Shown here: positions 16,612-52,294 of the stretch, in pieces
Layout of the letters: every line of letters begins with the position of its first letter
Position numbering within the stretch: the stretch's first letter is position 1
NCBI GenBank assembly: GCA_950295325.1
Contig: OX485805.1
Span: forward strand, 41,938,758 to 42,002,757
Reading direction: 5' to 3'
Source: Polytrichum commune
Lineage: Eukaryota > Streptophyta > Polytrichopsida > Polytrichales > Polytrichaceae
Length of the DNA: 64,000 nt
Notes under the pieces: generated by a model
Database searches by the model: none
What the model saw: the letters and a program-made list of their open reading frames with translations, nothing else
Told to the model about the DNA's origin: nothing
Translations under genes and position numbers: made by a program

Positions 16612-16621
16612 ATTGTGTGTA
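16612..16621 (+). repeat. Left target-site duplication of the large MULE
   Basis: ATTGTGTGTA, repeated exactly at 32659-32668. The 10-bp size fits the 8-10 bp typical of Mutator-like elements. The repeat is TG-rich, which weakens its value somewhat. Confidence 0.65.
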
Positions 16622-16850
16622 GAGCGTGACTTGTATGCGAGCGATGGGCGGAGAGCGGAGAATTGGAGAGCGGAGAGCGGAAAATGGAAAACACAATCCA
16701 AATATAGAATATTTATGCTAGGCATTTTAGAATATTCTGTGAATATTTCTTTTTTGGGCCAAGGGTTGAGACCTATAACCGTGGACCCAGGGGGTTTAAA
16801 AATTGATACATTCCTATTTTTTTCCTATTTTTTCCTATTACCGTGCTATC
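16622..16850 (+). repeat. Left terminal inverted repeat of the MULE
   Basis: Begins GAGCGTGACTTGTATGCGAG and contains several GGAGAGCGG units. It matches the right end (32500-32658, inverted) in four ordered blocks; the sequence between the blocks is diverged. Confidence 0.7.
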
Positions 16851-16911
16851 ACTTTCCAGTAATATTGGTTGATTTAAACAATTTTTTTTACGTGTATGAT
16901 TTACGATATGT

Positions 16912-17328
16912 GTTACCAACAGCTTAGGCACTCTTTTGCCTAATAATTAATTAAAGTGAAAAAAGTGGTTAGGCAATTTGAAAAATAATATCTCAAAGTT
17001 GGGCAGTTTTCAATTATAATTAAATATAAGTTAGGCATTCATCTAGTTTTCTAACTGGTTAGGGTTACTTTCAAAATGGATGGTTACCCTAATCACTTGC
17101 ATTAGTAACCTTAAGCAGACTTATTGTTGTGTGATGTAGTTTTATCGTGTATGAAATGGTTGTGGTATGTAGGGAAGAGATTTATGAGTTATACTTGAAT
17201 TTATGTAAGTTTAGGCAGTTTCATAATTTAATTTAATTTAGTTTTTTTTGGGCAAATATAATCAAGAATTTCTAGAAAATTTAGGCAGTCTTGTAAATAA
17301 TTATTTTATGCCTAAGCTGCTAGTAACA
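16912..17328. mobile_element. MITE nested in the left subterminal region of the MULE
   Basis: The left end GTTACCAACAGCTTAGGCA and the inverted right end (GTTACTAGCAGCTTAGGCA read inwards) differ at 2 of 19 positions. The 417-bp interior is A/T-rich with scattered TTAGGCA words. An ATG(T/C) duplication at the edges is possible but not clear. Confidence 0.6.
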
Positions 17329-17490
17329 TGCGGTAGTCGTGCATAGTCTACATAGTGTGAATGACAAAACCCTTTTTATTGAAAAAGACAATATGAATAT
17401 TGTATTGCTGACTCAGTACATGTAATGACAAGGGAATTTTGAGTGGCCACCGTCCATTGAAAAGAATCTAGGCTGTTTGTAGGTTGCATC

Positions 17491-20400
17491 CTAGTTTTTA
17501 GCCAAATTGTGAGTCAAGAGTCCGCTTTCTAGGACTAGCTTGACCTCGTTGAAGCTAAAGGTAGGCGCGTGAATGAAAAGGTCGGCCTCAAGATCACGGT
17601 GGCAAACCTTCAAAAGGATGAAGTACACATGCTTGCAATAAGAGAATTGGGTCCGAGCTCGGAACTTAGTCATCGTCTTCTTGAATGCAGGGCAAGTGCA
17701 ACCCACGAAAGAGCTGATGGTGACCTGGTACTGTGTGATGGCAGGAGAAACACCCGAATCCAGCCCGATGATGCAACCATGTCCTGGATGAGGTATCATA
17801 GTGATGGAACGGATGCAAGCTTTCAGAGAGTCGGAGGAGGCCATGGAGAGTCGCTGAGCGGGATTTGGGCGAATGGCAGTGCGTTTGACCATCTTGCCGT
17901 CTCTCTTGCCAGGGTAGCGGTCTGTTTCTGCAGGAACGGGCACCGTGCTCAGATTTGCAGGTGGCGGGGCAGAAAAGAGCATGCGTCTTGGAGAGACCGG
18001 CTTCTTAAGCGGGAGTTGGAATCCGGCCGCTTCAAGGGCAAGAATTTCGGTAGGCTTGAGGTTTGTGCCTAGCTTCACCGGCCAAACGTCTGGAATCGGC
18101 GGCATTTCCCGGTCTGCTGAGTGCTTAGCAACCCATTTGCGCCTTGTGCCCTTCACGCACCGGTCAATGTCATCGGAGCAAAAGAAGAATTCTGTCCTCT
18201 TTGATAAATTCCTGCGTATATTAGTCCAAACTCCGGTGTAGGTAGGCTCGGCGGTCAAATTGGCGCCCCTCACAATTCTCTCCGTACACTTCTTCTTCGT
18301 GACAGCTCTCTGGGCCCAACAACACTTCGCCGAGGTCTTGGGAAGTCTTGATATGTGCCACTCCTTGACGTTAACCTTTGTCTCTTCGACAACATTGACA
18401 TGACGGATCCCCCCGTCATTCGGCGGGGACGCAGGGATGCTCTCAAGCTCAGGCTCATGATGAATTTCTTGGACGTCCATATCATCTTCAGTATCTTCAA
18501 GAATGATGGGCATCTGTACAGGACGAGCCCTCACAGCACATCCTGAACCTCTTGGATGTGAGAAGTTTACCTTGTCAGGCCGATGAGACTCCTCTTCTGC
18601 TCCAAGAGGTAGATCTACCTTCTGCTTCGTGGACCCGAATACCTCTTCTCCAGCCATGCGAGGAACACGGGTACAAAATTCTTCTGCTCCAGGCATGTCC
18701 AACATGGGGTCTTCAAGCACTAAAGGATTACCTATTTGCTTCGCCCTACGCTCTGCCATCCTTAGTTTGAGCTCTTTCTTTGTAGGGCATGTTCCGCCGA
18801 CGTCACCTTTCAGGAACTGGTAGTAATTGACAACCTGTAAGAAGCCTCTAACGAAGTCGTCAATTGTAGCAACGTAGAGGTCACCGCCACTGTTTCCAGA
18901 CGCTTGAAGCCACTTGTTGTGTATTGTTTCAGCTAGATTACATGAAGGCAGTTCTGCTAGTTCTTCTTCTGAAAATTTCTGAGAGTACATAGTGGAAGTA
19001 GTTACAGATTAGTGAAGAGTTGTTTCAGATTAGAATACTGTGAAAAGAAGGAAAAGAATATGAAATGTATTGGAAAAACATACCCCGGTCATGAAGCCTC
19101 CCCATTGGCGATAACGGTAGTGCCAGAATACAAGCCAAAGCTCTAGTTTGTTTAGGGCCTTCTCTGTCACTGCCCCGGCGGATACCCACCATGCACGTAG
19201 CCCGTGGTACATACTCTCCGCTTCGTCCATGGTCCTCGCCGTCCTATACTGGTGGCACATCTTCTTGTGTTGCTCCCAGAGTTCTTCGGGAATGTACTTC
19301 TTGGTATACTTAACCATAGACTGGGTCCAGTGAAACTGACAGGTTCTCTCGTGGTCCTCCTTCTTCCCATTGCCATATATGACCCGAACTGCATTCCAGT
19401 TGGCCTGGGCGTTGTCGGCCATGAAACCCTTGAAGTTGGGCTTGACAACGCCATTTCTCTCCATGACAGCATTGAGATTTTTCCATAAAACGATCTGGGC
19501 ATCAAAGTCCTCAGATTGCATGTCACAATTTACAATGGTCATGACACGACAATATGTGGAGTCATATACGTGGCATGCCATTGTGGTCCATTGTCTTACA
19601 CGTTTGACATGGTCGAACATCATCCAGGCATTCTCCAGGTCTTCCCCGGGCTGCATACGCTTCACCAAATCTACCCCACTACCAGGCCCAACTTCCGACA
19701 TCTTGAAGACAAAAACCTTGTCAAGATCAGCCCCTTGACCTGGAAATTTGTTCTCCTGAACAAAGGCCTATAAACTGATTCCACGGAGTTTGGTGATAAA
19801 GTCCATGACACCATACCTTCTGAGGAAACGGAAGCTCATGACCTTGTTGCGGATGTTTGGGGAAGCCATGTCCTTGCATCGGTCAAAGACATGAACAAGT
19901 TCCTCTAGAGTGAGCTTCTTTGGCGGCGCATCATCGGATTGAAGAAGATAGTTGCCAATTAGAACTTTGCTAGCCTCCAGCACCACTGCACTCTTGGTAG
20001 CCTGGGGAGTCTTCTCGATCTGTTCTTCAATTAGGCCAGTGATCTCAGCCTTAGTGTCTCTATAGTCGCCCACCTTGACTAGGTGATCGTGAGTTCCTAG
20101 GTGGATACACGCTCTTGTATGGTTGATTTTGCCAGCAACATAATAAATCTTAGCTCCACATGTAGCAATACATGCCGGGGGTTCTTTACATACCTTGCAA
20201 ACAAGAGTGGACTCAGTTGGTGGTGTTTGATCCACTACAAAGGCTTGCAGGGTACAACTTTCAAACTCTGTCTCGTTGACTTGGAAAATACGAGGACGGC
20301 GGATCAGATATTCACACTCCTTGTTGCAACGCAGGTATCCAACGCAGGCGGAAGAACGGAAGGACAAACCAAAGTCGTTTGTGATGTTGGTGGTGATGGT

Positions 20401-21173
20401 CTTCGTCCACACATGGCCGTCGTAACGCTTGTCCATTCCCTGCATTGACTTGGCCTGTGACCGTGCGGCCGTGTGACTAGCGGGTGGCAACTCAAATATG
20501 ACGGCACCATCGAACACAACAGGAAGGTACTATACCCTTTCGTGTCTAATCACCGAGTAGTCTATTTTTTTGAGAATTTTTTTTTTCCAGGCATTCCGGC
20601 GAGTTGTTTAAGTAATGGTAATATGCTAACAGTGTCTTGCGAAAAAGGATATACTTTAGGAGCGTTCCCACTAACTATGACCTTAGGCGGGGCCTTTGTG
20701 GGACTGCACTCTTCATCAGAAGAAAGTGTTATTAAAGACTGAAATGTAACGTTTTCTACAATTGGCGTATCGAGACCGGGCTCGAGCTTGACCTTCACAT
20801 CACGTGGCAGAGGAGTTTGAATGGTGTAGGTAGAGGAAGAACGAGGAGTGAGGATCTCAGTAGACGCAGCCATCTGAGAATCAGTGAGGCCATACACATG
20901 GTAACGACCTGGATGAAAACTCCAAAACAAGTTATTGTTCTCATCTCGCTGCGATACCCGACCAAGGGTGTGTGTAAGCTCTGACGTGACAACGTCAAAA
21001 ACATCCTCGTCAACAATAATAGTGTCCTCTCTGAAGCCGAACCGAAGACTCAGACGTTGTGCCGTAACGATTGCGAGACCGTCCTCTTCCATCCGAAAGG
21101 TAAGTGGGACTCTCACTCCATCTACATAGAGGACAGCCAACCCCAACTCTCCGATAGCAGGAATATAAACCAT
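17491..21173 (-). pseudogene. Mutator-like (MULE) transposase with SWIM finger, two exons, damaged
   Basis: Catalyses cut-and-paste transposition. In order, the N-terminal ~200 residues (ATG 21173 chosen over an upstream ATG at 21284 because coding character begins there) have no named domain. A zinc region follows: CVGYLRCNKECEYL (about 20360) and C-x2-C ... ACIHLGTHDH (about 20100), resembling the GCM/WRKY-like fingers of MULE proteins. The DDE core (19701-19084) has TIVNCD, FKGFMADNAQANWNAV and CQFHW. The SWIM finger CTCPAF ... YCKHVYF is near 17640. An intron at 19083-18979 (105 bp, GTATGT ... CTCAG, phase 0) fits both frames. Damage: a frame change in the A10 run at 20577-20586, TAG at 20532-20530, and TAG at 19770-19768, all with clear homology continuing across. 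About 1190 codons if undamaged. Confidence 0.88.
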
Positions 21174-21675
21174 GATGATGGAAATGAACCCTTGGGGGAA
21201 GATGGAAATATGGAAGAGGTTTCTCAACATTGTGGGATACCTATTTATTAGAAATGCTTTGCCAACGACAACAATGGTGGACATGACCCAAATGACGGAT
21301 GAACTCTGAACAAAAGAAACACGAATATCTTAAAATTTGTAACGCTGTCACGATATACAAAATAAGAGTGTCCAAGTCATGGTAGACATTCTAAATGACA
21401 AGCAATTAAATATGGTTAGTTGGCGCCGACTTAAAGCCTGATTCATTATTAGGTCTAGGGATAGCCCTGACGTTTGAGGACAGGAATAGATCGAATGACG
21501 AAATCCCAATTGGCCATTAAATATATGAATGTTCCTTGTGGAAACAATTGTACCCGATCGAGTGATACTCATCTCCTTTCACTTAGTATCATAAGTTATG
21601 AATTTTCGAGTGGCGTAAGATGTGTTCGGTTGACGGGAGGGTTTGAGAGTGTTGGAGTAGACATGCTCAGGAAGG
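21174..21675. promoter_or_regulatory. Divergent intergenic region between the two MULE genes
   Basis: About 500 bp separate the transposase start (21173) from the companion start (21676 or 21688). The genes read outwards from here, so both promoters probably lie in this stretch. I see no certain TATA box. Confidence 0.5.
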
Positions 21676-22027
21676 GTGACACATGACATGCAGGCCCCTA
21701 TCAAGAGGAGAACGAAGAGAGGGAAGTTATATTTCAGTAGCACTAAGGCGTTGAAGTCGAGTAGGATGGGGAGGAAGAAGGTGGCGCCTGAAAGATATGA
21801 GACAAGTGGGATTAACAAAGTTTTAGATTTTGAGGACACCGAGGAGAACGCAACATTATCGACGGTAGATGAATGTGAGGGTCCCTCAACTTCCCGGGGC
21901 CGAGGATCTCAGTATCGAGAAGCATCAAAGGATGCGGGGACACAGTCCAATCCCGCATCCAATCCCGCATCGCAGGAGCAGAGTGGGGAGGAAGAGCTTG
22001 AAGAGACGAGCTTGATGGAACTGGAAG

Positions 22028-25000
22028 GTGGGTTTCGGAAACCCTAAACTTGACACTTGTGGTAGAAGTTAGCCCCCGACTAGTCAAGGTAGGTTTAGAT
22101 ATGGTTGCCTCGGGAGCTTTGTTTTTGGTTGGGGGTCTGAAATTTTGTGAGAGGAAAGGCAAGGTAGGTTCAGATATGGCTGCCTCTGGGGCTTTGTGTT
22201 TGGTTGATGGGCTGAAATTTTCATAGTGGAAAGTCAAGGTAGGTACAGATATGGCCAACAATGGTGCAGGTAAGAGGTACTAGAATGAGCCTCCGAGGAG
22301 GTGCCTGTAACGGCACCCCCCTCGGGGGCCTTCTTTTTACTTAAAATTATGAAAATTTAGAGACAGCAAAGTGACCTAGGTGTAGATATGGGTTGCCTCG
22401 GGGCTTTGTTTTTGGTTGGGGGCCTGAAATTTTGAGAGAGGGAAGTGAAGGTAGGTTTAGATATGGCTACCTGGGGGGCTTTGTTTTTGTTGAGGGGCTG
22501 AGATTTTGAGAGTGGAAAGTCAAGGTAGATTTAGATATGACCAACATTGGTGCAGGTAGGATGTATTAGATTGAGCCTCCGAGGAGGTGCCTGTAATGGC
22601 ACCCCCCTCGGGGGCCTTTTTTTTGCTTGAAATTCTGAAAATTTTTAGAGAGCAAAGTGACCTAGGTGTAGATATGGGTTGCCTCAGGGCTTTGTTTTTG
22701 GTTGGGGGCCTGCAATTTTGAGAGAGGGAAGTCAAGGTATGTTTAGATATGGCTACATGGGGGGCTTTGTTTTTGGTTGAGGGTTGAAATTATGAGAGAG
22801 CACAGCCACGTTAGGTTCAGATAAGGCCAACATTGGTACAGGTAAGAGGTACTAGAATGAGCCTCCGAGGAGGTGCCTGTACCGGCACCCCCCTCGAGGG
22901 CTTTTTTTTTGCTTGAAATTATGAAAATTTAGAGAGAGCAAAGTGACGTAGGTGTAGATATGGGTTGCATGGGGAGCTTTGTTTTTGCTTGAGGGCTTGA
23001 AATTTAGATATTGGATAGTCAAGGAAGGTACACATATGGCCAACATTGGTGCATGTTAGAGGTACTAGAATGAGCCACCGAGGAGGTGCCTGTAACGGCA
23101 CCCCCCTCGGGGCCTTTTTTTTTGCTTGAAATTCTAAAATTTTGAGAGAGCAAAGTGAGCTAGTTTTAGATATGGGCAGCCTTGGGGGCTTTGTTTTTGG
23201 TTGAGGGCCTGAAATTTAGCTATTGGATAGTCAAGGTAGGTACACAGATGGCCAACATTGGTGCAAGTTAGAGGTACTACAATGAGCCTCCGTGGAGGTG
23301 CCTGTAACGGCACCCCCCTCGGGGGCCTTTTTTTTGCTTGAAATTCTAAAATTTTGAGAGAGCAAAGTGACGTAGGTGTAGATATGAGCTGCCTGGGGGG
23401 CTTTGTTTTTGGTTGAGGGCCTAAAATTTAGCTATTGGATAGTCAAGGTAGGTACACATATGGCCAACATTGGTGCAGGTTAGAGGTACTACAATGAGCC
23501 TCCGAGGAGGTGCCTGTAATGGCACCCCCCTCGGGGGCTTTGTTTTTGCTTGAAATTCTAAAATTTAGAGAGAGCAAAGTGAGCTAGTTTTAGATATGGG
23601 CAGCCTTGGGGGTTTTGTTTTTGGTTGAGGGCCTGAAATTTAGCTATTGGACAGTCAAGGTAGGTACACAGATGGCCAACATTGGTGCAGGTTAGAGTAC
23701 TACAATGAGCCTCCAAGGAGGTGCCTGTAACGGCACCCCCCTCGGGGCCTTTGTTTTTGCTTGAAATTCTAAAATTTTGAGAGAGCAAAGTGAGCTAGTT
23801 TTAGATATGGGCAGCCTTGGGGGTTTTGTTTTTGCTTGAGGGCCTGAAATTTAGCTATTGGATAGTCAAGGTAGGTACACATATGGCCAACATTGGTGCA
23901 GCTTAGAGGTACTAGAATGAGCCTCCGAGGAGGTGCCTATAACGGCACCCCCCTCGGGGGCTTTTTTTTTGCTTGAAATTATGAAAATTTAGAGAGAGCA
24001 AAGTGACGTAGGTGTAGATATGGGCTGCCTAGGAAGCTTTGTTTTTGCTTGAGGGCTTGAAATTTAGCTATTGGATAGTCAAGGTAGGTACACATATGGC
24101 CAACATTGGTGCAGCTTAGAGGTACTAGAATGAGCCTCCGTGGAGGTGCCTGTAACGGCACCCCCCTCGGGGGCTTTTTTTTTTGCTTGAAATTCTAAAA
24201 TTTTGAGAGAGCAAAGTGAGCTAGTTTTAGATAGGGGCAGCCTTGGGGGCTTTGTTTTTGGTTGAGGGCCTAAAATTTAGCTATTGGATAGTCAAGGTAG
24301 GTACACATATGGCCAACATTGGTGCAGGTTAGAGGTACTACAATGAGCCTCCGAGGAGGTGCCTGTAATGGCACCCCCCTCAGGGGCTTTGTTTTTGCTT
24401 GAAATTCTAAAATTTAGAGAGAGCAAAGTGAGCTAGTTTTAGATATGGGCAGCCTTGGGGGTTTTGTTTTTGGTTGAGGGCCTGAAATTTAGCTATTGGA
24501 CAGTCAAGGTAGGTACACAGATGGCCAACATTGGTGCAGGTTAGAGTACTACAATGAGCCTCCAAGGAGGTGCCTGTAACGGCACCCCCCTCGGGGGCTT
24601 TTTTTTTGCTTGAAATTATGAAAATTTTGAGAGAGCAAAGTGACGTAGGTGTAGATATGGGCTGCCTGGGGGGCTTTGTTTTTGGTTGAGGGCCTGAAAT
24701 TTAGCTATTGGATAGTCAAGGTAGGTACACATATGGCCAACATTGGTGCAGGTTAGAGGTACTACAATGAGCCTCCAAGGATTGTGCCTGTAACGGCACC
24801 CCCCTCGGGGGCTTTTTTTTTGCTTGAAATTCTAAAATTTTGAGAGAGCAAAGTGAGCTAGTTTTAGATATGGGCAGCCTTGGGGGCTTTGTTTTTGGTT
24901 GAGGGCCTAAAATTTAGCTATTGGATAGTCAAGGTAGGTACACATATGGCCAACATTGGTACAGGTTAGAGGTACTAGAATGAGCCTCCGAGGAGGTGCC

Positions 25001-28000
25001 TGTAACGGCACCCCCCTCGGGGGCTTTTTTTTTGCTTGAAATTCTGAAATCTTGAGATAGCAAAGTGAGCTGGTTTTAGATATGGGCAGCCTTGGGGGCT
25101 TTGTTTTTGGTTGAGGGTCTGGAACTTAGCTATTGGATAGTCAAGGTAGGTACAGATATGGCCAACATTGGTGCAGGTTAGAGTACTACAATGAGCCTCC
25201 GAGGAGGTGCCTGTAACGGCACCCCCCTCGGGGGCTTTTTCTTTGCTTGAAATTATGAAAATTTAGAGAGAGCAAAGTGACGTAGGTGTAGATATGGGCT
25301 TCCTTGGGGGCTTTGTTTTTGGTTTAAGGCCTGAAATTTAGCTATTGGATAGTCAAGGTAGGTACACATATGGCCAACATTGGTGCAGGTTAGAGGTACT
25401 AGAATGAGCCTCCGAGGAGGTGCCTGTAACGGCACCCCCCTCGGGGGCTTTTTTTTTGCTTGAAATTCTGAAATCTTGAGAGAGCAAAGTGAGCTGGTTT
25501 TAGATATGGGCAGCCTTGGGGGCTTTGTTTTTGGTTGAGGGCCTGGAACTTAGCTATTGGATAGTCAAGGTAGGTACACATATGGCCAACATTGGTGCAG
25601 GTTAGAGTACTACAATGAGCCTCCGAGGAGGTGCCTATAACGGCACCCCCCTCGGGGGCTTTTTTTTTGCTTGAAATTATGAAAATTTAGAGAGAGCAAA
25701 GTGACGTAGGTGTAGATATGGGCTGCCTTGGGGGCTTTGTGTTTGGTTGATGGGCTGAAGTTTTCATAGTGGAAAGTCAAGGTAGGTACAGATATGGCCA
25801 ACATTGGTGCAGGTAAGATGTATGAGAATGAGCCTCCGAGGAGGTGCCTGTAACGGCACCCCCCTCGGGGGCTTTTTTTTTGCTTGAAATTATGAAAATT
25901 TAGAGAGAGCAAAGTGACGTAGGTGTAGATATGGGTTGCCTTGGGGGCTTTGGGTTTGGTTGATGGGCTGAAATTTTCATAGTGGAAAGTCAAGGTAGGT
26001 ACGGATATGGCCAACATTGGTGCAGGTAAGATGTATGAGAATGAGCCTACGAGGAGGTGCCTGTAATGGCACCCCCCTCGGGGGCCTTTGTTTTGCTTGA
26101 AATTCTGAAAATTACAGAGAGCAAAGTGACCTAGGTGTAGATATGGGTTGCCTTGGGGCTTTGTCTTTGGTTGGGGGCCTGAAATTTTGAGAGAGGGAAG
26201 TGAATGTAGGTTTAGATATGGCTGCCTGGGGGGTTTTGTTTTTGGTTGAGGGGCTGAAATTCTGAGAGATGAGAGGCAAGTTAGGTTCAGATATGGCCAA
26301 CATTGGTGCAGGTAAGATGTATGAGAATGAGCCTCCGAGGAGGTGCCTGTAACGGCACCCCCCTCGGGGGCCTTTTTTTTGCTTGAAATTCTGAAAATTT
26401 AGAGAGAGCAAAGTGACCTAGGTGTAGATATGGGTTGCCTCGGGGCTTTGTTTTTGGTTGGGGGCCTGAAATTTTGAGAGAGGGAAGTGAATGTTGGTTT
26501 AGATATGGCTGCCTGGGTGGTTTTGTTTTTGGTTGAGGGGCTGAAATTCTGAGAGATGAGAGGCAAGTTAGGTTCAGATATGGCCAACATTGGTGCAGGT
26601 AAGATGTATGAGAATGAACCTCCGAGGAGGTGCCTGTAACGGCACCCCCCTCGGGGGCCTTTTTTTTGTTTGAAATTCTGAAAATTTAGAGAGAGCAAAG
26701 TGACCTAGGTGTAGATATGGGTTGCCTCGGGGCTTTGTTTTTGGTTGGGGGCCTAAAATTTTGAGAGAGGGAAGTGAAGGTAGGTTTAGATATGGCTGCA
26801 TGGGGGGCTTTGTTTTTGGTTGAGGGGCTGAAAATCTAAGAGAGGACAGCCAAGTTAGGTTCAGATATGGCCAACATTGGTACAGGTAAGAGGTACTAGA
26901 ATGAGCCTCCGAGGAGGTGCCTGTAACGGCACCCCCCTCGGGGGCTTTTTTTTTGCTTGAAATTCTGAGAATTTTGAGAGAGCAAAGTGAGCTAGGTTCA
27001 GATTGGGTTGCCTCGGAAGCTTTTTTTTGGTTGAGGGGCAGAAATTTTGATAGTGGAATGTCAGCTAGGTTTAGATATCGCTGCCTCAGGGGCTTTGTTT
27101 TTGTTGAGGGGCTGAGATTTTGAGAGTGGAAAGTCAAGGTAAGTTTAGATATGACCAACATTGGTGCAGGTAGGATGTATTAGATTGAGCCTCCGAGGAG
27201 GTGCCTGTAACGGCTCCCCTCTTGGGGGCTTTTTTTTTGCTTGAAATTCTGAAATATTTATAAAGCAAAGTGAGCTAGTTTTAGATATGGGCTGCATGGG
27301 GGGCTTTGTTTTTGGTTGAGGGCCTGAAATTTTGATAGTTGAGTGTGAGCTAGTTTTAGATATGGGCAGCCTTGGGGGCTTTGTTTAAGGTTGAGGGCCT
27401 GAAATTTAGCTATTGGAAATTCAAGGTAGGTATACATATGGCCAACATTGGTGAAGGTTAGAGATACTAGAATGAGCCTCCGAGGAGGTGCCTGTAACGG
27501 CACCCCCTCGGGGGCTTTTTTTTTGCTTGAAATTTTGAAATTTTAGAGAGAGCAATATGAGCTAGGTTTAGATTGGGTTGCCTCGGGAGCTTTGTTTTTC
27601 GTTGAGGGCCTGAAATTTTGAGAAAAGAATGTCAGCTAGGTTTAGATATGGCTGCCTCGGGGGCTTTGTTTTTGTTGAGGGGCTGAAATTTTGATAGTGG
27701 AATGTCACCTAGGTTTAGATATGGGCAGCCTCGGGAGCTTTGTTTTTGGTTGAGGGGCTGAAATTGTGATAGTGGAATGTCACCTAGGTTTAGATATGGG
27801 CAGCCTCGGGAGCTTTGTTTTTGGTAGAGGGCCTGAAATTTTGATAGTTGAATGTCAGTTAGTTTTAGATATGTGCAGCCTTGGGGGCTTTGTTTAAGGT
27901 TGAGGGCCTGAAATTTAGCTATTGGAAATTCAAGGTAGGTACACATATGGCCAACATTGGTGAAGGTTAGAGGTACTAGAATGAGCCTCCGAGGAGGTGC

Positions 28001-28610
28001 CTGTAACGGCACCCCCCTCGGGGGCTTTTTTTTTGCTTGAAATTCTGAAATTTTAGAGAGAGCAATGTGAGCTAGGTTTAGATTGGGTTGCCTCGGGAGC
28101 TTTGTTTTTCGTTGAGGGCCTGAAATTTTGAGAAAAGAATGTCAGCTAGGTTTAGATATGGCTATCTCGGGGGCTTTATTTTTGTTGAGGGGCTGAAATT
28201 TTGATAGTGGAATGTCACCTAGGTTTAGATATGGGCAACCTCGGGAGCTTTGTTTTTGGTTGAGGGGCTGAAATTTTGATAGTGGAATGTCAAGGTAAGT
28301 GTAGATATGGCCAACATTGGTGCAGGTAGGATGTATTAGATTGAGCCTCCGAGGAGGTGCCTGTAACGGCACCCCCCTCGGGGGCTTTTTTTTTGCTTGA
28401 AATTTTGAAATTCTTATAAATAAAAGTCAGCTAGTTTTAGATATGGGCTGCCTTGGGGGCTTTGTTTTTGGTTGAGGGCCTGAAATTTAGCTATTGGAAA
28501 GTAAAGGTAGGTTTAGATATGGCCAACATTGGTGCAGGTAATAGGTCTTAGATTGAGCCTCCGAGGAGGTGCCTGTAACTGTTTGACGTAATTGTTTGAA
28601 CTATAGCAAG
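22028..28610 (+). other. Intron 1 of the companion gene (6583 bp)
   Basis: Donor GGAAG|GTGGGT and acceptor TATAGCAAG|AGATTG join exons 1 and 2 in a single frame (...LMELE|EIAEAAHAAED). The codon split 1+2 fits exactly. Nearly the whole intron is the satellite described separately. Confidence 0.7.
22045..28580 (+). repeat. Modular satellite array, 26 units, inside intron 1
   Basis: The anchor block GAGCCTCCGAGGAGGTGCCT recurs (with small changes) at 22287, 22573, 22859, 23072, 23284, 23496, 23707, 23919, 24132, 24345, 24556, 24769, 24982, 25193, 25406, 25617, 25830, 26043, 26329, 26616, 26903, 27187, 27474, 27983, 28343 and 28555. Spacings are mostly 211-213 or 284-287, with single cases of 509 and 360. 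They therefore follow 212 + n x 74 (n = 0, 1, 2, 4). The inserted 74-bp module reads roughly TTTAGATATGG, GGGGCTTTGTTTTTGGTTGA, then GGGCCTGAAATTT. The central units (23072-26043) are uniform 212-mers while the edge units are longer. Long minus-strand frames across the array are by-products of the repeat, not genes. Confidence 0.92.
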
Positions 28611-31475
28611 AGATTGCAGAAGCTGCACATGCTGCTGAAGACAAATACAAGATGAAGAACCCAGATTCTAGCAATTGGACGGATCATAATGCAGAGGAAT
28701 GGGTTAAGAAAGCTGTGAATAAGGTCAAGGATAAGCTTGTCGCGGAGCTCGGGAAGCATTTGCCTGTTGCGGATCCCAAGCTAACTTCTGGTTTTCTAGA
28801 GGAAGTAAAAGCTCACTATGAGAAGTTCGATGAACCTGAGATGCTCCAGGAAAAGCTATACATGCTTGCCACTTCAACGATGCCAGCAAGGATGATGGTT
28901 AAGTGGCTCTAGAGGTGGAATCCCTCTGCGGCAATTCGAGATGCGCATCGTTTTCCCAAGGCTAGCTTCGCCGACTCCAAGTTTCCGGAATGGCTGAATC
29001 GGGCAACATGGTGGGCGCAGGTTAGTATTCATCTTGAATTTCATGTTGTCATTTGACTGACCCCTAATGAGCTATGGCAAGGATGTCAACCTGTAAGACA
29101 ACATCTAATTTCTTAAAAATGTTTCGTGTACATGGCCTCAGATTGCAGTGGAGGCTGACGAGCTCTTCTCGGGTGTTCTCACAGACCTTGGAGAAATTAT
29201 TGACTACAATCCCTATGGCGAAGATCCTATCTGGACTATCTTCGATTACGTGGAGGCCATGAGGTGTCAGCTCTGGGAGATTGCCTTCTTCATTGAGTTG
29301 GGTGGAGATAACGGCGCTTACAAGAACAACCCCCCGGACAAGCAACCTTTCTTCGTTTAAGCTGTCCGCAGGGTCCTTTACAGGTACTTTCGATATGTTC
29401 TCCTGCCCATGAAGGCCATCTCTAAGGTACCCGCTTTCTTCCCTAACTACCTGGACTTCGAAAGTCATGATTCCATGTTCACTCCTGCAATTATAAAAAC
29501 ATGGGATCCAATTCACTTTCAACAGTGCGGGTGGTACTTGGACTGTCCGGTCAAGAAGCCTCCTCCATTTGACATCGCACTCAAGAACTCCATCCAACCT
29601 CTCCTACCTTCTCCCGCTGCATCAGTTCCAGGCTCAGAGTCTCCCACACCCCCAAAGGTGGCTCCTCCATAAGCAAGACTGCTACTAAAGGGAGTAGGCC
29701 TTGGGGATCCAAGCGGAAGGCTGCTGAGTTGGTTGAGGAGCCAATGGACGAAGATATTCGTGTAACAGGTGGTGATTTCGGTGTTCCACCTGTTGAACTT
29801 GCAGTCCCTATCAGCTCCCATCCTCCACGGGCACCTAGTCCTAAGCGTATTCACCTGGGAGCTGCTGGTCAAGTCAAACCCATCACATTCGTCCCACCTG
29901 CGGTTAAGGCAATGTCGTCATCCCAGGCATGCACCTCCTCCTCTGCTTCTCCTCGGGTTCTCATACTCAATGACTCATTCCACAGGATGTTGGATTATAA
30001 GGCGAAGCACAACAAATTCCCTTCAACGTACGATGACATGGTTTCTTTTCTAAGTGAGGTACATATCCAACTTCATTCCCATTCATTTCTGCTAGCCTGC
30101 CCCTATTTACGAATTTATTCTATACTTAACGCCCTGGTTTTTTTTGAAACAAAGGTTGGAGCATCCAGGGAATTCTTCTTCTCAGGCAAGGTGTTCCAGA
30201 AGGCTGCAATGGACCTCATTATTGCAGAGTATCCCGATGGTTTACCTGTCCCAGGAGTTTCCGAATTTCCAGGGCAAGTTCCACATTGGAATAAGCAGGT
30301 TCAGAACTTTATCAAGTTCACCATTGGCTTTTGTCAAGGCTATCTTCACGACGACGGGGCACTCCTCCTATTCTATCCTGACAGCATGCAAATCAAGAAG
30401 AAGGTTTTGAGCTTTCTCTACAACAACAATCTGGAGGTCAAAGAGGAATGGACCATCGTGAATTCTCTCCACCTCACTCACCCTGTGCATAACTCCAAGC
30501 GGGTCAATAATTTTGGCCATTTCCCGCTCTTCAAGTTCTCCTTCCTTCATGACTTGAATCACATTGCTAACAATTCGGGGCCTATGGTTGATGTCCAGAC
30601 TCTTAAATTCAAAGCGATCGTGCTGGTTCGGTCTTTCTCCACACCTTTGGTTAGGCAACCCAAGGAGTTTGTCATTTCTTCTAGTGACGAATTTGAAGAT
30701 GTTGACCTTGCACGTGATGACGTGTTTTTCAACATTGTCACCACTGATACTGCACTCAAGCGCAACGACGGTGACACATTCTGGAGGGGCCCTAAGGAGA
30801 AGGCAGTGTCCCTGCTCCAGCTTCTAATCAGTGGCCTTAGCCCTCCAGGGGGGATTATATGTGACCTCACTGCTGGAACTGGTATGAATAATTTGTTCAA
30901 TATTCCCATGTCCCTAGACTTAGGCAATTCAATCACATTCGACTAATTCATTTGTTTCGGTCTTTGTAGGTGCCTCGGTTCTTGCAGCACAATCTGCTAA
31001 TAGGGCAATAGTGGCACTTGAGGGAGATAAAGAATTGTACGAAGAACTCCTGCAGCCACTTCAGGTCGCAGCGTCGGAGTCTCAGGGGGTCGATCCAACC
31101 CACTTTGTAGACCTTGACGACGACGACGATGCCCTCCCTCAATAGGGTGCAGTTAATCTATGTGAGTAAGTCTTTTGTCATCCTAAACTTATTTTTCGAA
31201 TATATTGCATTTAATTGGAAGGATTCTAACAATCGTAATTTGTCCTTTGTTGGTGCAGTCTGATGGTTCAAGGCCGACGCTCGGTAGACTATGGCTCACC
31301 TCCTAGTTCTAGCATGCGACTTCCTTGTTATGCAGAGGATATGGCAGTAGCTTATGCCAAAGACTCCTCCCATAGTAGTAGTGCCTCTTCTAGTCCACGT
31401 CAGAGATACGATCCAAGAGTACTCAAATTCATAGATCAGAGTGCTTCGGAGAGTGAGGATGAGTTTATTCCCTGA

Positions 31476-32500
31476 ACTCCATTTTGTATTGGATTTTATT
31501 ATTCTATGATCCGCACTCCTTTGCATTTGAATCTAGTAGTTTAAAGATGATGACAAAAGATCATTAAATACGAGGCAAAACAATTCCTAAAAAAACAAAT
31601 TTGAATAGAATCATAGTATAAAAACTTAAATTATAGTTGTGGAATGGATAAACAATGCTCAACAATTAAATCATGTAAAAATCAAATGTTAACCTTCCAT
31701 AAATGTTTACCCTCGGGAGTGGATCAAAGTTAACATTATAAAGGTGTTAACAATTAACAATTATAAAATTATTTTTTTGAGCAATATACAAATCTTAACA
31801 TGTTCTAAATATAAGCAATTGTGAACAGTACTTGTGAGAGAATACAATTCACTAAATTACAAACCCAATCAAAATTTTATTCAATATCAAGTTTACAAAT
31901 CATGGGTGAAGTATGAATCAATGGTTCTATGGTGAGATTCATGTGCATGCACAACTTGCAAATATTTCTCAATGTGCACCAACAAACCACATACTTGGAC
32001 ACCCACATGAATGTGTTTCCATGTACCTTCTAATGGAACTTCTCATGTGCCTCCATTCTTGAACTTCCATCACTAGAACTATTAGTAGCCAATCTTAGTC
32101 TTTCCAAAAGACTAGTTATGGTTGTATTTCATTCGTTAACATTTATAGAGTCAAATTTACAAAGAAGGGAGTAGCATTTTGTTAACAATTAACACATTTA
32201 ACATTTATAGTGTGCAATATGTGGGGAGTAGAAGAAGTTAACATTTAGAAATGGTTAACACTTATAGGTGTAACATTTATAGAGGGTGGATTGTATGTGG
32301 AGAATTTTTTTTCACAAACCTCCTTCGTGTTTCCTTCAAATAGTAAATTTTATTTAATTTACAGTAATGTGTACTATAGTACATAAGTTTGGATATTGTC
32401 TTGGTGACGTCATACTGATGTAAGCCCTCATTTTGTATTTTATTAAAATATTTCTATGTTTCCTAAATCTATAGACGTTATGAATGGGGAAATGTTGGCC
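31476..32500. other. Right subterminal non-coding region of the MULE
   Basis: About 1 kb of A/T-rich DNA between the companion gene and the right inverted repeat, with repeated 'ttaacattta(t/g)' words near 31680-32290. No gene seen. Confidence 0.6.
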
Positions 32501-32658
32501 TATTTCCACGGTAATAGAGTCCCTAACTCTTAAAAGTTTCTAAAAATAGTTCGATGTTTTCCCTCATTCCCGCGGTTATAGGTGCATTTTTCCTTTCAAT
32601 TCATGTCTCAAATTGAGTTCTCCGCTCTCCGCTCTCCGCTCGCATACTAACTTTCCCC
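32500..32658 (-). repeat. Right terminal inverted repeat of the MULE
   Basis: Read inwards on the minus strand it begins GGGGAAAGTTAGTATGCGAG, then three GGAGAGC units, ACCTATAACCGCGG and CTATTACCGTG, matching the left end block for block. Confidence 0.7.
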
Positions 32659-32668
32659 ATTGTGTGTA
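32659..32668 (+). repeat. Right target-site duplication of the large MULE
   Basis: ATTGTGTGTA, identical to 16612-16621. Confidence 0.65.
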
Positions 32669-43015: not shown

Positions 43016-43305
43016 TGTCAAATGAAGGCATGGAAATATGATGTGTGTACATGTTGATTGATTGACAAAGTTTGAAATGGGATTCATGAATTGTGATTTA
43101 GTCTAAGGACATGCATTATGGTTAGCCATGAATGCAAATTCTTGTAAGATTGTTTTGTTTGTTTGTTTGTTTGTTTTTTTCCAATTCCCTCTCCAAATAT
43201 GAGTTGGAATGCAACTTAGACCCAAGATGCCTCACCATCCTATGTAGGCTACATAATCTACTAGAATACACACACTCAAAGTAAAAACACACAGAAAATC
43301 ACCCC

Positions 43306-46050
43306 ATGGCACAAGTCTACACATATATCAACAACAAAATCGCCCAAGGCAAACCAGTAACTACATCTATCTTTAGAGAAGAATTGCCCCATCTCCCACA
43401 AAACCTACCACAAAAAATAACTGAATGTACCCCAAAAGTAAGGGGATATTACCCCACCCTAAACACTACCAATGCAACTCACACCGCTCCGGACACCATA
43501 AGTATAGATGCCCACCACATAACAAACTTAAAAATAGTCACTTGGAATACCGGACACATCAACTCCAACCTACCATGCATCCAACAAATCACACAAACAT
43601 TACATGCAGACCCACACATCCTCCTCGTACAAGAAACCAAATTTCAAAAATCCAAATCCACATCATACATAGACGGCAAGTTCCAAAATTATTAAATCAT
43701 ATACAACAACTCCAACACCATAACACACAAACACAATAGATATACCGGATCCGCCTCGGCAAGAGGAGGTGTACTAGCAATGGTACTTAAATCCATATAC
43801 ACAATTGAAAACATTACCAAAATCCCAACCCCAAACTCAATATCGCCATAACTCCAAGCTATTATAATCAACAACAAACCCATCGCACCCATACTCATCT
43901 TAAACATGTATATGCCCACACACCCTCAAGATATCCACCTCACACAAGAAATCCAAAGCCAAATTCAATCCCTGATAAACCAACACCCAAATCATCAAAC
44001 CATCATAGCAAGAGACTTCAATCGGGACATCCTACTTAGAGGCAAAACATCCAATAGAATACCCTCCCCCCTAACCAAAGTGATTATGCAAGAGCACAAT
44101 TCACGAATAGCATCAAGCTTAACACGATTATTAACAAAAATAACTTTACAAGACAAGGAGGTCACAATTACACCTCAACGAGCCTCATAGATGGCTTCTA
44201 TTCTAACATCCCGAACCTCAACAATATACAAATATCCAACCTAGACCAAAACTCTGACCATTACCCAATCCAAATACAACTAGCCCCTAATAGCATTGTC
44301 ATCAAAGGAACCAAAATCCTCACGAGCTTCCCCCCCCCCCGGCATAACATACCCTATATCCCCCATCAACATCCAAAAACTCCAAACAACATTCATAGAA
44401 AGACAAAACCTAGCTATAGCTAACCTCCATACAATGTTACAAAGTGAATAACTTACATACATATAATGGGAAGAAGCCCAAAGTAAATTCCAAGACATCA
44501 TAAACTATCTCAACCAATGCATTGAACAAACATGTATGACAAAAACCCCCTCACCGTTACCCAACAAAGCAAAAGCCCATGGCGGATTCCTACCCAAGAG
44601 ATAACAAAAAGTGTGGAAACACCAATTAAAAATACACCATAGCATCCGCAAAGCAATTCGAGCCACATGTCACAACTTTCGCACACACTTCCACAAACCC
44701 AAACATAAGTACTCTACAACTAATCCGGAACATCAACATCCCACCATTTCCCACTAACTACACAGAACACAAACAATAGATAGAGGACCTAGCTACAAAA
44801 GGCAAAAAATGCTAAAACAGAAGCCCACAAAACCATTACCAAACAAACCACAATAAACTGCAAAATGGCCATCACAAAATACAGAGCCCGCCTCAACACC
44901 AAACCCAAAACTATCCACAACATGATTTTCTACCCAACAACCTATAGCTCCTTCGACTGCCTAAAAAACTCCCAATGAGCCATTCTCGCCAAACCCACGG
45001 ACATAGCCAATAAAATTTACAACATCCAACAAACATCCTCCCAAAGACAAACACCCATATACAAAGACACCACAAATCACCTAAGCTCATGCACATGTGC
45101 CGTACGAAGATACCCTAGGCACATAAACAAATGTTTCATACTTGACAAAAGAGGCCCTCATGAACACACAAATACACACCCAATTCACCAAAGAAACCTA
45201 TGACAAATGTCTTAGGAGACTAACTTGATGAAAAACCCCTGCACCCGACAACATTCCCAATGACATAATCAAGACCCTACCACCACAATGTCATGACCTA
45301 CTCTTCTTATTTTTCCAACATTACTACAAACATAAGGAAATCCCAACCTATTGGAAACACAATATAACCATCTTCTTACACAAAAAGGACGATCCAATTC
45401 ACCTCGTCAACTACATACCCATTGCCATGGCTAACATAGTATATAAGCTATATACTAACACCTTAACGGCCCTCCTCATAAGCTACAGATAACAATACCG
45501 TCTACTTCACTAATAAGGGTTTAGATCACAATGTAACACCTCAAGACAAATCCAAATGATCATAGCAACCCTTGAGGACACACGACTCAGCAACAAGGAT
45601 ATATACCTCACATACATCGATTTCCGAAACGCCTTTGGCTCCATCGACCACGCAAGACTGTTAGCCTTAATGGAAGATTGAGGCTTCTCCCTAGACACCA
45701 TCGAAATCGTTGACAACATCTACAAAACTCCATCACATCCTTCACTAGAAACCATTTCGGAACAACACCCTCAATAGAAATCAATCGCATAACCATACAA
45801 GGTGATACCCTTAGCCCATATTTATTCATAATAATCCTAGAACCCATCTTGAGATGGATGGAACAAGGCAACATGGAATACCATTTCAACACCTCCCCCA
45901 CCACATGTACCGCCACCGCCTACACAAGTGCCCTAGCAATAATCACCGACAATATACAATACATCCAACCTCAAATAAGTAAATTTCAAAAATTCGCAGA
46001 ATGGTCCCACATGGACCTCAACCTATCAAAATGTGCTATCGCAGGCTACC
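43306..46050 (+). mobile_element. LINE ORF2 (APE endonuclease + reverse transcriptase), broken; 5' part
   Basis: Non-LTR retrotransposon ORF2 in many pieces. The APE-type endonuclease begins at about 43530 (LKIVTWNTGHINSN, LLVQETKF) and continues with IIARDFN (about 44010; the family has G-D-F-N) and SDHYPIQIQL near 44257. RT motifs follow: IFLHKKDDPIHLVNYIPIAM (45373-45432), TYIDFRNAFGSIDHARL (about 45612), and GDTLSPYLFIIILEP (about 45800). The catalytic YADD box is replaced by AYTSALAIIT (about 45920). More than eight stops or frame changes are present. The reading is cut at 46050 by the gypsy element and resumes at 55569. Confidence 0.85.
46046..46050 (+). repeat. Left TSD of the gypsy element
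   Basis: CTACC, repeated at 55569-55573 directly after the right LTR. The LINE reading frame continues across the two sites. Confidence 0.85.
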
Positions 46051-47099
46051 TGTGAGGCCAAACCGCCCACCCTTAAGCGTCCTAGTCCGAGTGAGGGCAT
46101 GGTGATCACATTCACATTCTTCCTAGTTTAATCGTTCCTCCGTCATTCACTCCATTGCATCACACGTAACTTCGATCACACCAATTTATTCTATGCCATG
46201 AGTACAAGCGTTGAAAAACGCTTTTCCTATCAGTGCTCTCTTAATTCCCTCTAACAACTTCCCACACAATTGCCAAACCACTTACATGAATCACTAATTA
46301 TCTAGCCAACCCATTTTCTTCAACTTAGGGCGCTAGATATAATTAGCTATCATTCTAAGCTTCCCCTAAACCCGTTACCGTCTAGCTAACTGCCTCCCCT
46401 TTTGGCCTTAACCCAGCGCTACACCTTCTGTCGCAGCTGACCAACGCTAAAACCTTCTGCCGCAGCTGACCAGCGCTAAACCTTCTGTCGCAGCTAACTG
46501 CCTCCCTTTCTGGGCTTAGTCCAGCTAATTAACTAAATTTCTAATCTTATTTTAATCAACTAAATTTCTAATCTCCTTCTAATCAACTAAATTTCTAGTC
46601 TCCTTCTAATCAACTAAATTCCTAAACTCCCTCTAATCAACTAAATTCCTAAGCTTCCTCTAATCAACTAAAATTCTCTACCACCCTACACCACACACAC
46701 ACACACACCCACCAAGAGAGAGAGATAGAATGAGAGAGAGGAAGAAGGAAAGGAGGGAGGGCACCCAAACCACAACCTCCTCAGCCTTCTCCTACTTAGT
46801 AGGACCTTATCCTATTCACTAAACCCCCAACCCTTAAACCAACAAGAATATGTTCTAATTCAAACATTTTAAATCAAAGACACTTCCCCTTGCCTCATCA
46901 AGCACTACTCCTCTAATCAAAACACTCCCTAATGTCACTAAGCTCCTAATTAATCACACAAATAGGCTTAAGGCCTAAACATAAATCCACACCAAGCCTT
47001 ATTCTTTTTATATTTTTAATTGTTTCAATAACACTCCAAATGCAATTCTAAGTAGATCCTAAACACAAACCAAATATGAGCTCTCATTTTGGGCTCATA
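46051..47099 (-). repeat. 3' LTR (left) of the gypsy element
   Basis: 1049 bp. Includes a short tandem array (3 units of the ~28-bp GCGCTAAACCTTCTGTCGCA type, 46420-46500), then CTAAATT-TCTAATC repeats and CA/GA microsatellites (about 46690-46740). A TATAAAAAG box on the minus strand (near 47010) fits transcription towards lower coordinates. Confidence 0.9.
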
Positions 47100-47156
47100 T
47101 AATTGGCGACCATCGGGGAATGGATTGCGAATCTCTTGCTTCGAAGGCAAGTTGTG

Positions 47157-48404
47157 TCAAACTCGATACTCCTTGCACCTACTTCCCGCCGTTCGAGTTG
47201 GGAAGCTCTCTCCGTTCAATGTCTCTAATTGTATGGAATTGTTGGGAAATACGTCGCGTACAAGATAAGGTCCCATCCAAACCGCATCAAACTTACCGGG
47301 GAATTCGAGTTTCTTACCATCTTGAATCATCACCATCATTTCCGGTCGTAGTGCCCTCTTCTTGTGCCGTTTGTCGAATGTGATTTTCCTCCGACGTTGA
47401 ATCGCCTCGATGTGTTGAGCCGCCATTCGCCTTCTCTCATCAAGCTCCTCCAAGTCGGTCAATCTATTTTTCAACGATTGACTTTTGGTATGGCGCGAAC
47501 CTATGGCCACTCGTAGAGACTCTACCTCATACAGAATTGGAAGTGTAGCTTCTAAATCATACACCAAGGAGAAGGGAGTAGCTTAAGTAGTTACTTTGTA
47601 AGTTGTCCGATAAGCCCACAATACCGCCGTCAACTTCGTCTCCCAATCTTTCTTAGAGTCTATCATTGTCTTGTGTAGGATACTTACCAAAATATCATTT
47701 ACCCTCTCCGTTTGACCATTTGTTTGGGGGTGATAAGGTGTAGTTTTCCTATGATCAATTTGGAACTTGTCCGTCATTTTTTGAATCAAGGAATTTAGAA
47801 AATGAGTGCCTCTATCACTCACCAAAATCTTGGGCACTCCGAATCTTGAGATTATGTTTTCATACATAAATGCCGCCGCATGCGCCGCCGTATCGGTCTT
47901 GACGGCCTTAGCTTCCGCCCACTTGGTGAGGTACTCGGTGGCAACTATAATGTAAGCCATTCCCTTGGAGGAATGAGGATGGACTTCGCCCACATAGTCA
48001 ATGCCCCACTTTTCGAAAGGCACAAGAGGCAATGATACATGTAGTAGCATTTCCATCCGTAAATCATTCCGAGCATACCTTTGATAAGCGTTACAACGCT
48101 TCACATAATCATGTGAATCCTTAAACAAGGTAGACCAAAAATATCCCGCTCTAAGAATCTTTTGACCAGTAAGTTGGCCGGAAAAATATCCCCCACATGC
48201 ACTATCATGACAAGCCTCTAGGATAGTCGGGATCTCTACCTCCGACACACACCTCCTAAGTAACCCATCGGTCCCCCTCCTAAACAATCTATGGCCTACT
48301 ACTGCAAAATGCCTACTATTAATCCTAACCTTTCTTCTATCTTCCTTGGTCCAATTTTCGGCAACCTTTGTGTGGTTAAGAACTCCACGATACCCGCATA
48401 CCAA
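47157..48404 (-). pseudogene. gypsy integrase (broken)
   Basis: Inserts element cDNA into the genome. The zinc-binding HHCC region (about 48215-48090) is damaged: CHDSACGGYF has Tyr where the second His is expected, and CNAYQ has Tyr for the last Cys. The catalytic core keeps GIDYVG, SDRGTHF and NGQTERVN, with 35 residues between the second Asp and the Glu (D,D-35-E). A TAA at 47585-47583 separates the core from the C-terminal part (47567-47157), which stays in the same frame and ends SRCKEYRV. The start at 48404 is only where the frame opens; the natural protein is part of a pol polyprotein. Confidence 0.88.
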
Positions 48405-48742
48405 TCCGGCTTGGCCGTGACCACAAAAAGATTATCATCCACCAATCTATCATCTATGGGACTCTCTCCTATCCCTTCGGACAACCTAGACAAGTGGTCG
48501 GCTTGTAGGTGCATGCGGCCCAGTTTGTACTCCACCGTGTAGTCAAACTCCTCCAATAACAAGACCCATCTAGCTAATCTTCCGCTTAGCTCCGCCTTAT
48601 TGACCAAGTATTTTATGGCCATGTGATCCACAAAGAAAACAACCGGATTACACACAAGATAATGTCGAAACTTCTTAACCGAAAATACCATAGCCAAGCA
48701 TTCCCTCTCCGTGATAGAATAGTTCATCTCGGACGGTGTCAA
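48299..48742 (-). pseudogene. gypsy RNase H region
   Basis: Degrades the RNA strand during reverse transcription. YSITERECLAMVFSVKKFRH, FFVDHMAIKYL and HLQADHLSRL are typical Ty3/gypsy RNase H blocks. It overlaps the integrase in a different frame, which shows a frame change near 48310-48400. Continuity with RT upstream (49105-48742) is lost through stops. Confidence 0.85.
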
Positions 48743-49104
48743 TTGCTTGCTAGCATAGGCAACGGGGTGGTCCTTACCGTTCTCACCGTGGATTGATACA
48801 AGACACTACCAACTGCTATATTGCTAGCATCACAATACACATGGAAAGGCTTATCCCAATCGGGTGGCCTCAACACCGGGTACGTGCTCAACTTATTCCT
48901 CAACTCTTCAAACGCCCTTTGGCATGCCTCGGTCTATTCAAATCTAACATACCTCTTGAGCAAGTGGGTAATATGAACCGCTATTTTAGAGAAATTAGGA
49001 ATCAATTCCCTATATCACCCCACATGTCCTAACAACTTGGCTATACCCTTGGCGTTGGTGGGAGTGGGTAACTCATCAATAACCGTTATTTTGTCGGGAT
49101 CCGG

Positions 49105-50433
49105 TTATCTCCCCTTCTCGCTCACCACATGACCCAAAAGAACTCCCTTGTGAACGCCCAATAATGTCTTATCCGGGTTCAAGGCCAATTGTATCTTCCT
49201 ACACCTAATCAAAGCATCTCGCACACACCCTATATGTTGACTAATATTTGATTGACTGCTAAAATCGTCCATGAAAACCGTCATGGATTTGTACAACAAG
49301 TCGGTGAAGATGTACATGACAAGCCTTTGAAACGTAGCCGGAGCGTTACATCACCCAAATGGTATGACCACCCAAACAAATGTGCCCCATGGAGTAGTAA
49401 AAACCATCTTATGGATATCTTGTAACGCTATGGCGATTAGGTTATATCCCGCATAACCATTCATGAATGTGTATCGAGCATGACCTCCTACCTCTTCTAG
49501 AAGGAGAGTGATGAATGGTAAAGGGAAGTGATCATTTTGTGTGTAAGCATTTAGTTTCCTATAATCCACACATACCCCCAACTTTCCATTCTTTTTCTTG
49601 ACCAACACCATTGGCGAGGTCCAATCTGTAATCTCGACGGGTTTGATAAATCCGACATTCAACAATCTCTCTAACTCCGCTTTAACCAACAATTGTAGTG
49701 ATGGGTTCGTCCTTCTCTCTTTTTGCCTAATGGGCCGAGCACCCGGAATCAAAGAAATCCGATGCTCCACCATCTCTCTAGGAATCTTTTTAAGCTCATC
49801 GTATGACCAAACAAAAGTGTCACTAAACTCATCCACCAAATCGCTATATTCCTTGATTTCTTCCTCCCCCAATTGAAACCTCATGTTCAATTGTCTCACT
49901 TTGCCATTCTTTGTAGTAACATCTCCTTCGGTAACATGAATTTGTTCATCTTTGTTCCAATACCAATCCGCCGGTACATGAGAATAATCATTGACATCTT
50001 GTCCAACCACAATTCCCGTTGACGTAGTATTGAAGTGTAAAGGCTTCTCCAACTTCTCTATTTTCATGATATGATCCTCATCTTGAGTCCCATCCACATG
50101 CACCAAACTTAAATCACTATCTTTCCTACTATCTACCCAAAGTGTCAATCCCCCTAAAATCCACTCTTCCTCGGTGAGCACCTCATATGTTTCTAATAAG
50201 GAATATTCCTCACTTCGTGACTCAATAATGTCATCGCTCAAGCATGGATGGTGGGACGTCGTCATGATGTCGAATTCCGACTCCGGATAATTCCTCAACC
50301 ATTGGGCATACTCCCCATCATCCCCATAATTGTAAAAACTAAAACCTAGACTACCCGAATGAACTACTCCTACCAATGTTTCATCATTCTTACCATTTTC
50401 TTTAGCATTGCGTTCATCTTCCGAAGATGACAA
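49105..50433 (-). pseudogene. gypsy reverse transcriptase (broken)
   Basis: Contains LVKKKNGKLGVCVDYRKLN, then FMNGYAGYNLI and VIPFG. After one TGA at 49353-49351 the same frame continues with APATFQR, VFMDDF and LGHVVSEKGR. The Y/F-x-DD box is intact. Motif A normally reads F-x-D-G-x-x-G; here the catalytic Asp is Asn. A single TAG near 50449 separates this frame from the protease. Confidence 0.9.
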
Positions 50434-50448
50434 AATCTCTTGTCTAAT

Positions 50449-52191: not shown

Positions 52192-52294
52192 TTCATCAAT
52201 GTGAGGATCCGCTCTAGGGGCCGGTAGTGCTTGAAGTGGTGCCGGTTCTGTAACCGCTAAAGGACATGGGCCGGTATCAACAACGGCATAAAGT

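Follow-up and report, generated by a model that had tools for sequence, protein, structure and literature searches.

Within the window (the whole stretch analysed here, 64,000 nucleotides of Polytrichum commune contig OX485805.1, assembly GCA_950295325.1), a 16-kb DNA transposon resembling Mutator-like elements (MULEs) carries two divergent genes, one for a transposase and one for a methyltransferase-like protein. That the second is a companion gene of the transposon is almost beyond doubt, and we hold equally firmly that the C-terminal domain of its product is a methyltransferase (MTase)-derived fold of the beta-class N6/N4 amino-methyltransferase type. The protein of an intact copy has at least 1037 amino acids (aa), with the MTase-type domain starting at about residue 695, and its N-terminal domain is probably, judging by a predicted fold, ParB/sulfiredoxin (Srx)-like. 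On balance, we favor the view that this is a transposon-borne ParB-methylase-like protein that would recognize its own element and counter silencing. An earlier reading of the DNA letters alone (the sequence-only reading) did not notice the ParB-like exon, the palindrome arrays, an intron hidden within one exon, a further exon downstream, and the exact register of motif IV; the ParB-like domain and the arrays make the gene more interesting than was first noted.

The element and its pair of genes

The window element (Table 1) is flanked on both sides by an exact 10-bp target duplication; MULE target duplications range from 9 to 11 bp. The duplication was examined for the window copy, and the ends were compared across copies: around the companion gene they recur with small changes in the 10 other copies compared, the outermost bases of the right-end AAAGTTAGTATGCGAGC differing in two of these. 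Both a target duplication and common terminal inverted repeats, as expected of a MULE, are present. The transposase shows a D...C-x2-H pattern (read from the sequence by eye), and its C-terminus matches the Pfam SWIM model at E=0.0036, below the Pfam cutoff; Pfam scans returned no MULE transposase match for it. We call the element MULE-like on three grounds, namely the 10-bp duplication, the C-x2-H signature and the weak match to SWIM, and this anatomy bears out the earlier suggestion that the methyltransferase-like gene resides in a DNA transposon.

The divergent transposase/companion pair also occurs in copies C4, C1 and C2, and other subfamilies of the 408-Mb genome have related pairs; in the C1 and C2 pairs, identity is 30-85% per stretch for the transposase and 27-56% per exon for the companion. 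The two genes are likewise divergent at locus L025, while L026 and L028 carry transposase pieces on the companion-gene strand, and the copy on contig C6 (13.9 kb joined) retains pieces of the transposase N-terminus only; most of the other 8-kb loci are too short to judge gene pairing. A search of the genome that scored 150 of 1487 candidates gave at least 165 matches to exon 4, counting fragments. On the minus strand of L021, at 5711-6361, lies another, distantly related member of the companion family, a few kb from a copy of subfamily A1, and L016 contains a TTTAGGG-type repeat, which fits a plant.

Table 1. Features of the transposon in the window (window coordinates)
Feature	Positions	Strand	Remarks
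Left target-site duplication ATTGTGTGTA	16612..16621	.	Same letters as 32659-32668
Left terminal inverted repeat region	16622..16697	+	Outer 11 bp degraded; inverted match with right end
MULE-like transposase gene	17491..21329	-	Four open stretches, SWIM-like C-terminus; divergent from companion gene
Minisatellite with palindromes	22085..28523	.	23 exact GGTGCC-N6-GGCACC (22300 to 28356)
Companion exon '1' (middle region)	28607..29020	+	TAG stop 28910-28912
Companion exon '2/3'	29142..30058	+	TAA 29358-29360; 917 bp vs 915 in C6 copy
Exon 4a	30155..30502	+	Motif IV region DLIIAEYPDG; DDGALLLF
96-bp GT-AG intron inside noted 'exon 4'	30503..30598	+	Open by chance in window subfamily
Exon 4b	30599..30881	+	Motif X equivalent WRGPKEK; motif I DLTAGTG
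Exon 5	30970..31165	+	ALEGD (beta-2 acid), acidic stretch; premature TAG 31143-31145
Exon 6	31259..31475	+	Conserved C-terminal tail ...RYDPRVLKFIDQSASESEDE
Right terminal inverted repeat, outer end GGGGAAAGTTAGTATGCGAGCGGAG	32618..32658	-	AAAGTTAGTATGCGAGC at the corresponding end of the 10 other copies compared, outermost bases varying in two
Right target-site duplication ATTGTGTGTA	32659..32668	.	Pairs with 16612..16621
Whole element	16622-32658		16 kb

Gene model of the companion protein

The C6 copy reads through eight exons and 1037 codons with no stop, although a start exon was not located. In the window copy three exons carry stops, there is a net frame change (exon '2/3' differs in length from its C6 counterpart, hence the change), and the upstream exons A and B are lacking (tblastn, E<=1), apart from one weak exon B match at E 0.62. 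This copy therefore cannot make the protein, and a live gene in the window is ruled out.

The peptides on which the sequence-only reading relied (DLIIAEYP, FWRGPKEKA, DLTAGTGAS and ALEGD) are all present on the strand and in the order it gave, and so is its phase-1 intron, with one exon ending at 30881, the next starting at 30970, and GT-AG borders like every splice site of the window model. The extent that it proposed, 30155..31145, falls on the gene, but its single exon 4 does not hold, since the 96-bp intron lies inside it: related subfamilies have stops at this place, and in the predicted model residues 112-147 have pLDDT <50, the intron corresponding to residues 117-148. Neither does the end at 31145 hold, that TAG being premature (CAG in the C6 copy) and the gene running on through exon 6.

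An amino-methyltransferase fold in the C-terminal domain

Descent from a beta-class amino-methyltransferase, as first proposed, is borne out by both profile searches and predicted fold. Against the Pfam family PF01555 (N6_N4_Mtase), the exon 4+5 product of the window, with the in-frame intron, scored 28.0 bits (E=2.6e-6; cutoff 26.7); spliced forms of the C6 domain scored 26.7 and 26.8 bits, and 22.7 when embedded in the 1037-aa protein, and six of eight subfamily members matched at E<=1. The C6 domain matched phage DNA methyltransferase families with a best E of 1e-10, over the motif X-I-II part only, and a profile of the eight subfamily sequences (alignment A1) matched M1.HpyAVI (E=1.4e-5) and CcrM (E=0.002) among Protein Data Bank sequences. 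Many of the MTase sequence matches span only the X-I-II part; the alignment to CcrM spans the whole domain. In profile-profile comparison with phage MTases, alignment A1 scored 68.7, and the highest of 60 controls (one reversed and 59 column-shuffled) scored 25.6; a larger alignment headed by the window sequence (A4) gave a probability of only 46%, over 93 columns. The predicted fold matches CcrM, MboIIA and M1.HpyAVI and is Rossmann-type with motif order IV-X-I (exon 5 lies outside the model), so that neither the structure nor the best profile matches point to an unrelated family.

With the MTase part, distant methylases were found in the phage collection (564 records at E<=1, best 8e-7), and one weak locus, L046, in viral_contigs. 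An MTase-like exon is also present on a 521-kb contig.

METTL14 and MTA9 are the scaffold halves of heterodimers, and the companion protein could by analogy play the scaffold part beside a MT-A70 enzyme of the host, or itself be descended from MT-A70 proteins. We regard this as improbable; descent from MT-A70 is disfavored by the better bacterial matches, while motif order does not distinguish the two origins.

Altered catalytic residues

In known enzymes, the aromatic residue of motif IV stacks on the flipped base. The sequence-only reading rightly recognized that motif IV is altered but took AEYP for the equivalent of DPPY; the HMMER alignment to CcrM pairs A-e-i-p-e-g-l with A-D-P-P-Y-N-L, and therefore EYPD is the correct counterpart, one residue further on. 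The motif is replaced in all 62 rows of A4 that have letters there (65 rows in total, three gapped), although many rows are close relatives and therefore not independent. The consensus is [DE]-[YIFLV]-P-[DE]: the first position has D in 31 rows, E in 30 and Y in one; the second has Y in 37, I in 16, F in four, L in three and V in two; the third has P in 60, with one L and one S; and the fourth, the tyrosine site, is acidic throughout (43 D, 19 E), so the place of the base-stacking aromatic residue is taken by an acid. Outside A4, the first position is Q in L024, V in L027 and Y in L030, and two copies of subfamily A1 read AEYHDG and AAYPDG (L016, L017); the fourth position is acidic in these five as well. 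As none of the 62 rows, many of them closely related, has a canonical D/N/S-P-P-aromatic motif, we do not file the protein as an ordinary working N6/N4 methylase. All eight sequences of A1 share the motif X lysine and the A-x-T-G of motif I. Two of them retain the first Gly of the motif I pair, and the other six have Ser, Ala or Glu instead; at the acid position after beta-2, five of the six sequences that extend so far have E and one has Q. Canonical base methylation has probably been lost.

The rival view, that the protein actively methylates DNA despite its unorthodox motif IV, marking element copies with 6mA or 4mC in order to protect or activate them, draws on the retained fold and SAM-side features (A-x-T-G in 8/8, the beta-2 acid in 5/6), on the D found at position 1 in half of the rows (31/62), and on purifying selection; it is nonetheless fairly unlikely given the missing canonical motif, the invariably acidic aromatic site and the replaced first Gly in 6/8 sequences.

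Selection on the companion gene

Between lineages, purifying selection acts on exon 4. Among 11 pairs compared, those with dS >=0.148 have dN/dS of 0.07, 0.07, 0.13, 0.22 and 0.24; the ratios of closer pairs are 0.29, 0.29, 0.44, 0.49 and 0.64, and one pair has no synonymous change. For the ParB-like exon, one pair gave dN 0.019 and dS 0.102. Comparison of L011 with L012 or L015 shows differences at 19-20% of sites in the excised intron and an exon dN of 0.027-0.029. These signs suggest that the companion protein is used by the transposon and is not a mere passenger. A functionless gene fragment captured by a MULE, as in Pack-MULEs, would agree with the broken window copy, but is very unlikely indeed: the gene pair is common to divergent subfamilies, dN/dS falls to 0.07 between lineages, and the C6 frame is intact.

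A ParB/sulfiredoxin-like upstream exon

An upstream exon, absent from the window copy, has a predicted ParB/sulfiredoxin-like fold at moderate confidence. The active-site motif of the ParB/sulfiredoxin superfamily is G-x-x-R, and across 75 rows the exon has GNHR, with G and N invariant and H and R in at least 90%. No Pfam ParB model is among the 16 families listed for the 75 exon members; DndB matches two of the 75 (E=0.0059), amid other chance-level matches. In the absence of a ParB profile match, we name the exon ParB/Srx-like and do not file it as a superfamily member. Its relatives in public collections number in the hundreds (this and the MTase-like exon on the 521-kb contig were noted for metagenome proteins P0125-P0244 and P0079), and the companion family probably occurs outside this genome; close prokaryotic or viral relatives of the exon were found in none of viral_contigs, genome_contigs and phages.

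Palindrome arrays

Subfamilies A, A1 and B have, we conclude with moderate confidence, non-coding palindrome arrays with a common core. Besides the 23 sites of the window, the C6 copy has 17 GGTGCC-N6-GGCACC sites, one array of them lying upstream of exon A and a second within the intron that precedes exon 4, and eight further A1 copies (L013-L020) have 5 to 8 sites each within two mismatches. With the same tolerance, the subfamily B copies C1, L023 and L025 have 8, 10 and 7 GTGGCC-GTTAAC-GGCCAC sites, mostly spaced by about 105 bp. Block shuffling (50 bp) of four sequences, 100 rounds for each, produced no site, and none lies in the window flanks. Units of A and A1 have about 54 bp in common around the core (score 74 against a null maximum of 25); units of A1 and B have only the core in common (L025, 28 against a null maximum of 24; C1, 23 against 25), and two comparisons of window and B units fell below the null maximum. 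The core is lacking in C4, C2, L021 and L026-L030, and in C2 a unit with a different palindrome is present twice.

The palindrome centre is GTTAAC in C6, L022, L023 and L025. GTTAAC is the HpaI site, whose bacterial methylase is an N6-adenine enzyme; the match may be coincidence. Single perfect GC-rich palindromes of 20-26 bp lie near distant family members (L027 6363 and 7938, L028 1327, L029 7475, L030 2199, L021 824; L021 itself belongs to A1), with none in dinucleotide shuffles of 1.6 Mb; not being arrays, they were kept out of the counts.

Proposed function and comparison with known systems

Beta-class N6/N4 enzymes (PF01555; CcrM, MboIIA, M1.HpyAVI) have the same fold, the order IV-X-I and the motif X lysine; the companion protein differs in having [DE]-[YIFLV]-P-[DE] for DPPY and in being encoded by a spliced gene in a eukaryotic transposon. 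In ParB-methylases, as here, a ParB-like domain precedes a beta-class MTase in one protein; examples are the phage NatCom_3357 gene (L035) and, among bacteria, Bce_0392 of Bacillus cereus (PMC5512222). The companion protein differs from these in the roughly 510 aa between its domains, the loss of canonical motif IV and its introns, and the link to ParB is mainly by fold.

An anatomical parallel is VANC of the Arabidopsis VANDAL MULEs, which is described as binding tandem-repeat motifs in companion-gene introns and upstream of the transposase and removing methylation there (PMC5735166). It too is a MULE companion protein with tandem arrays in non-coding parts, including introns and the region upstream of the transposase; such arrays are found in the window, C6 and subfamily B and are absent from some copies. 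The present arrays differ in consisting of palindromes, not a directional motif, and the protein is a different one. DUF1985, the VANC domain, is not among the three Pfam families at E<=1 for the 1037-aa protein (start exon absent).

Because the array anatomy resembles that of VANC targets, we suggest that the companion protein, descended from a prokaryotic or phage ParB-methylase, would bind palindrome-bearing copies of its own element and relieve host silencing there, allowing the transposase to be expressed; its MTase-like domain would serve as a DNA-binding and perhaps SAM-binding module, not an ordinary writer of 6mA or 4mC. Self-recognition with anti-silencing, argued from this analogy, has slightly less than an even chance of being right. 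The protein might instead assist replication or transposition, clamping the palindrome array as ParB-like proteins would, and take no part in silencing. This view would suit the ParB-like fold and the position of the arrays between divergent genes and in an intron; since it leaves the MTase-like domain unexplained, we consider it rather unlikely. The fullest form of our preferred reading is tentative, and as a whole doubtful: a plant MULE lineage may have co-opted a ParB-methylase of prokaryotes or phages, remodelled its methylase as a non-canonical module for binding DNA, and assembled tandem palindromes with GTTAAC-like centres as binding arrays of its own, yielding a self-recognizing anti-silencing clamp independent of VANC. 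If the proposed function is right, it would be a second solution, using a different protein, to the problem that a transposon faces in distinguishing its own copies from other genomic DNA and freeing them of silencing; the proposed self-recognition can be tested on defined DNA sites.

Cytosine methylases, TET-like enzymes, SET methylases and VANC are already known as transposon cargo. TET/JBP enzymes have been described in fungal DNA transposons, in a source that also cites SET methylases in Phytophthora Harbinger and MuDR families (PMC12730594), and DNA methyltransferases (DNMTs) in dinoflagellate and charophyte retrotransposons (PMC5890265). Like these, the companion gene is a case of a transposable element that has taken up the fold of an epigenetic enzyme; unlike them, its fold is that of an amino-methyltransferase, and the active site seems to be altered. 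N4CMT of bdelloid rotifers, a host gene with a chromodomain, writes 4mC and is not described as transposon-borne in the accessible part of its report (PMC8885841). Among the open-access titles and abstract beginnings listed, none mentions an amino-methyltransferase or ParB-methylase in a plant MULE, which does not prove absence, and the words methyltransferase and methylase do not occur in a MULE survey (PMC6446971).

Other features of the window

Elsewhere in the window, open stretches on the minus strand at 46000-53300 resemble, by eye, a Ty3-type long terminal repeat (LTR) retrotransposon, and arrays of 28-bp and 27-bp repeats at 46413-46677 and 54525-55128 may sit in its two LTRs. On the plus strand, open reading frames (ORFs) at 43285-44423 resemble, also by eye, a non-LTR retrotransposon in its endonuclease part (WNTGH..., VQETKF), and two open stretches of 415 and 373 aa at 60492-62861 are possibly a retrotransposon first ORF.
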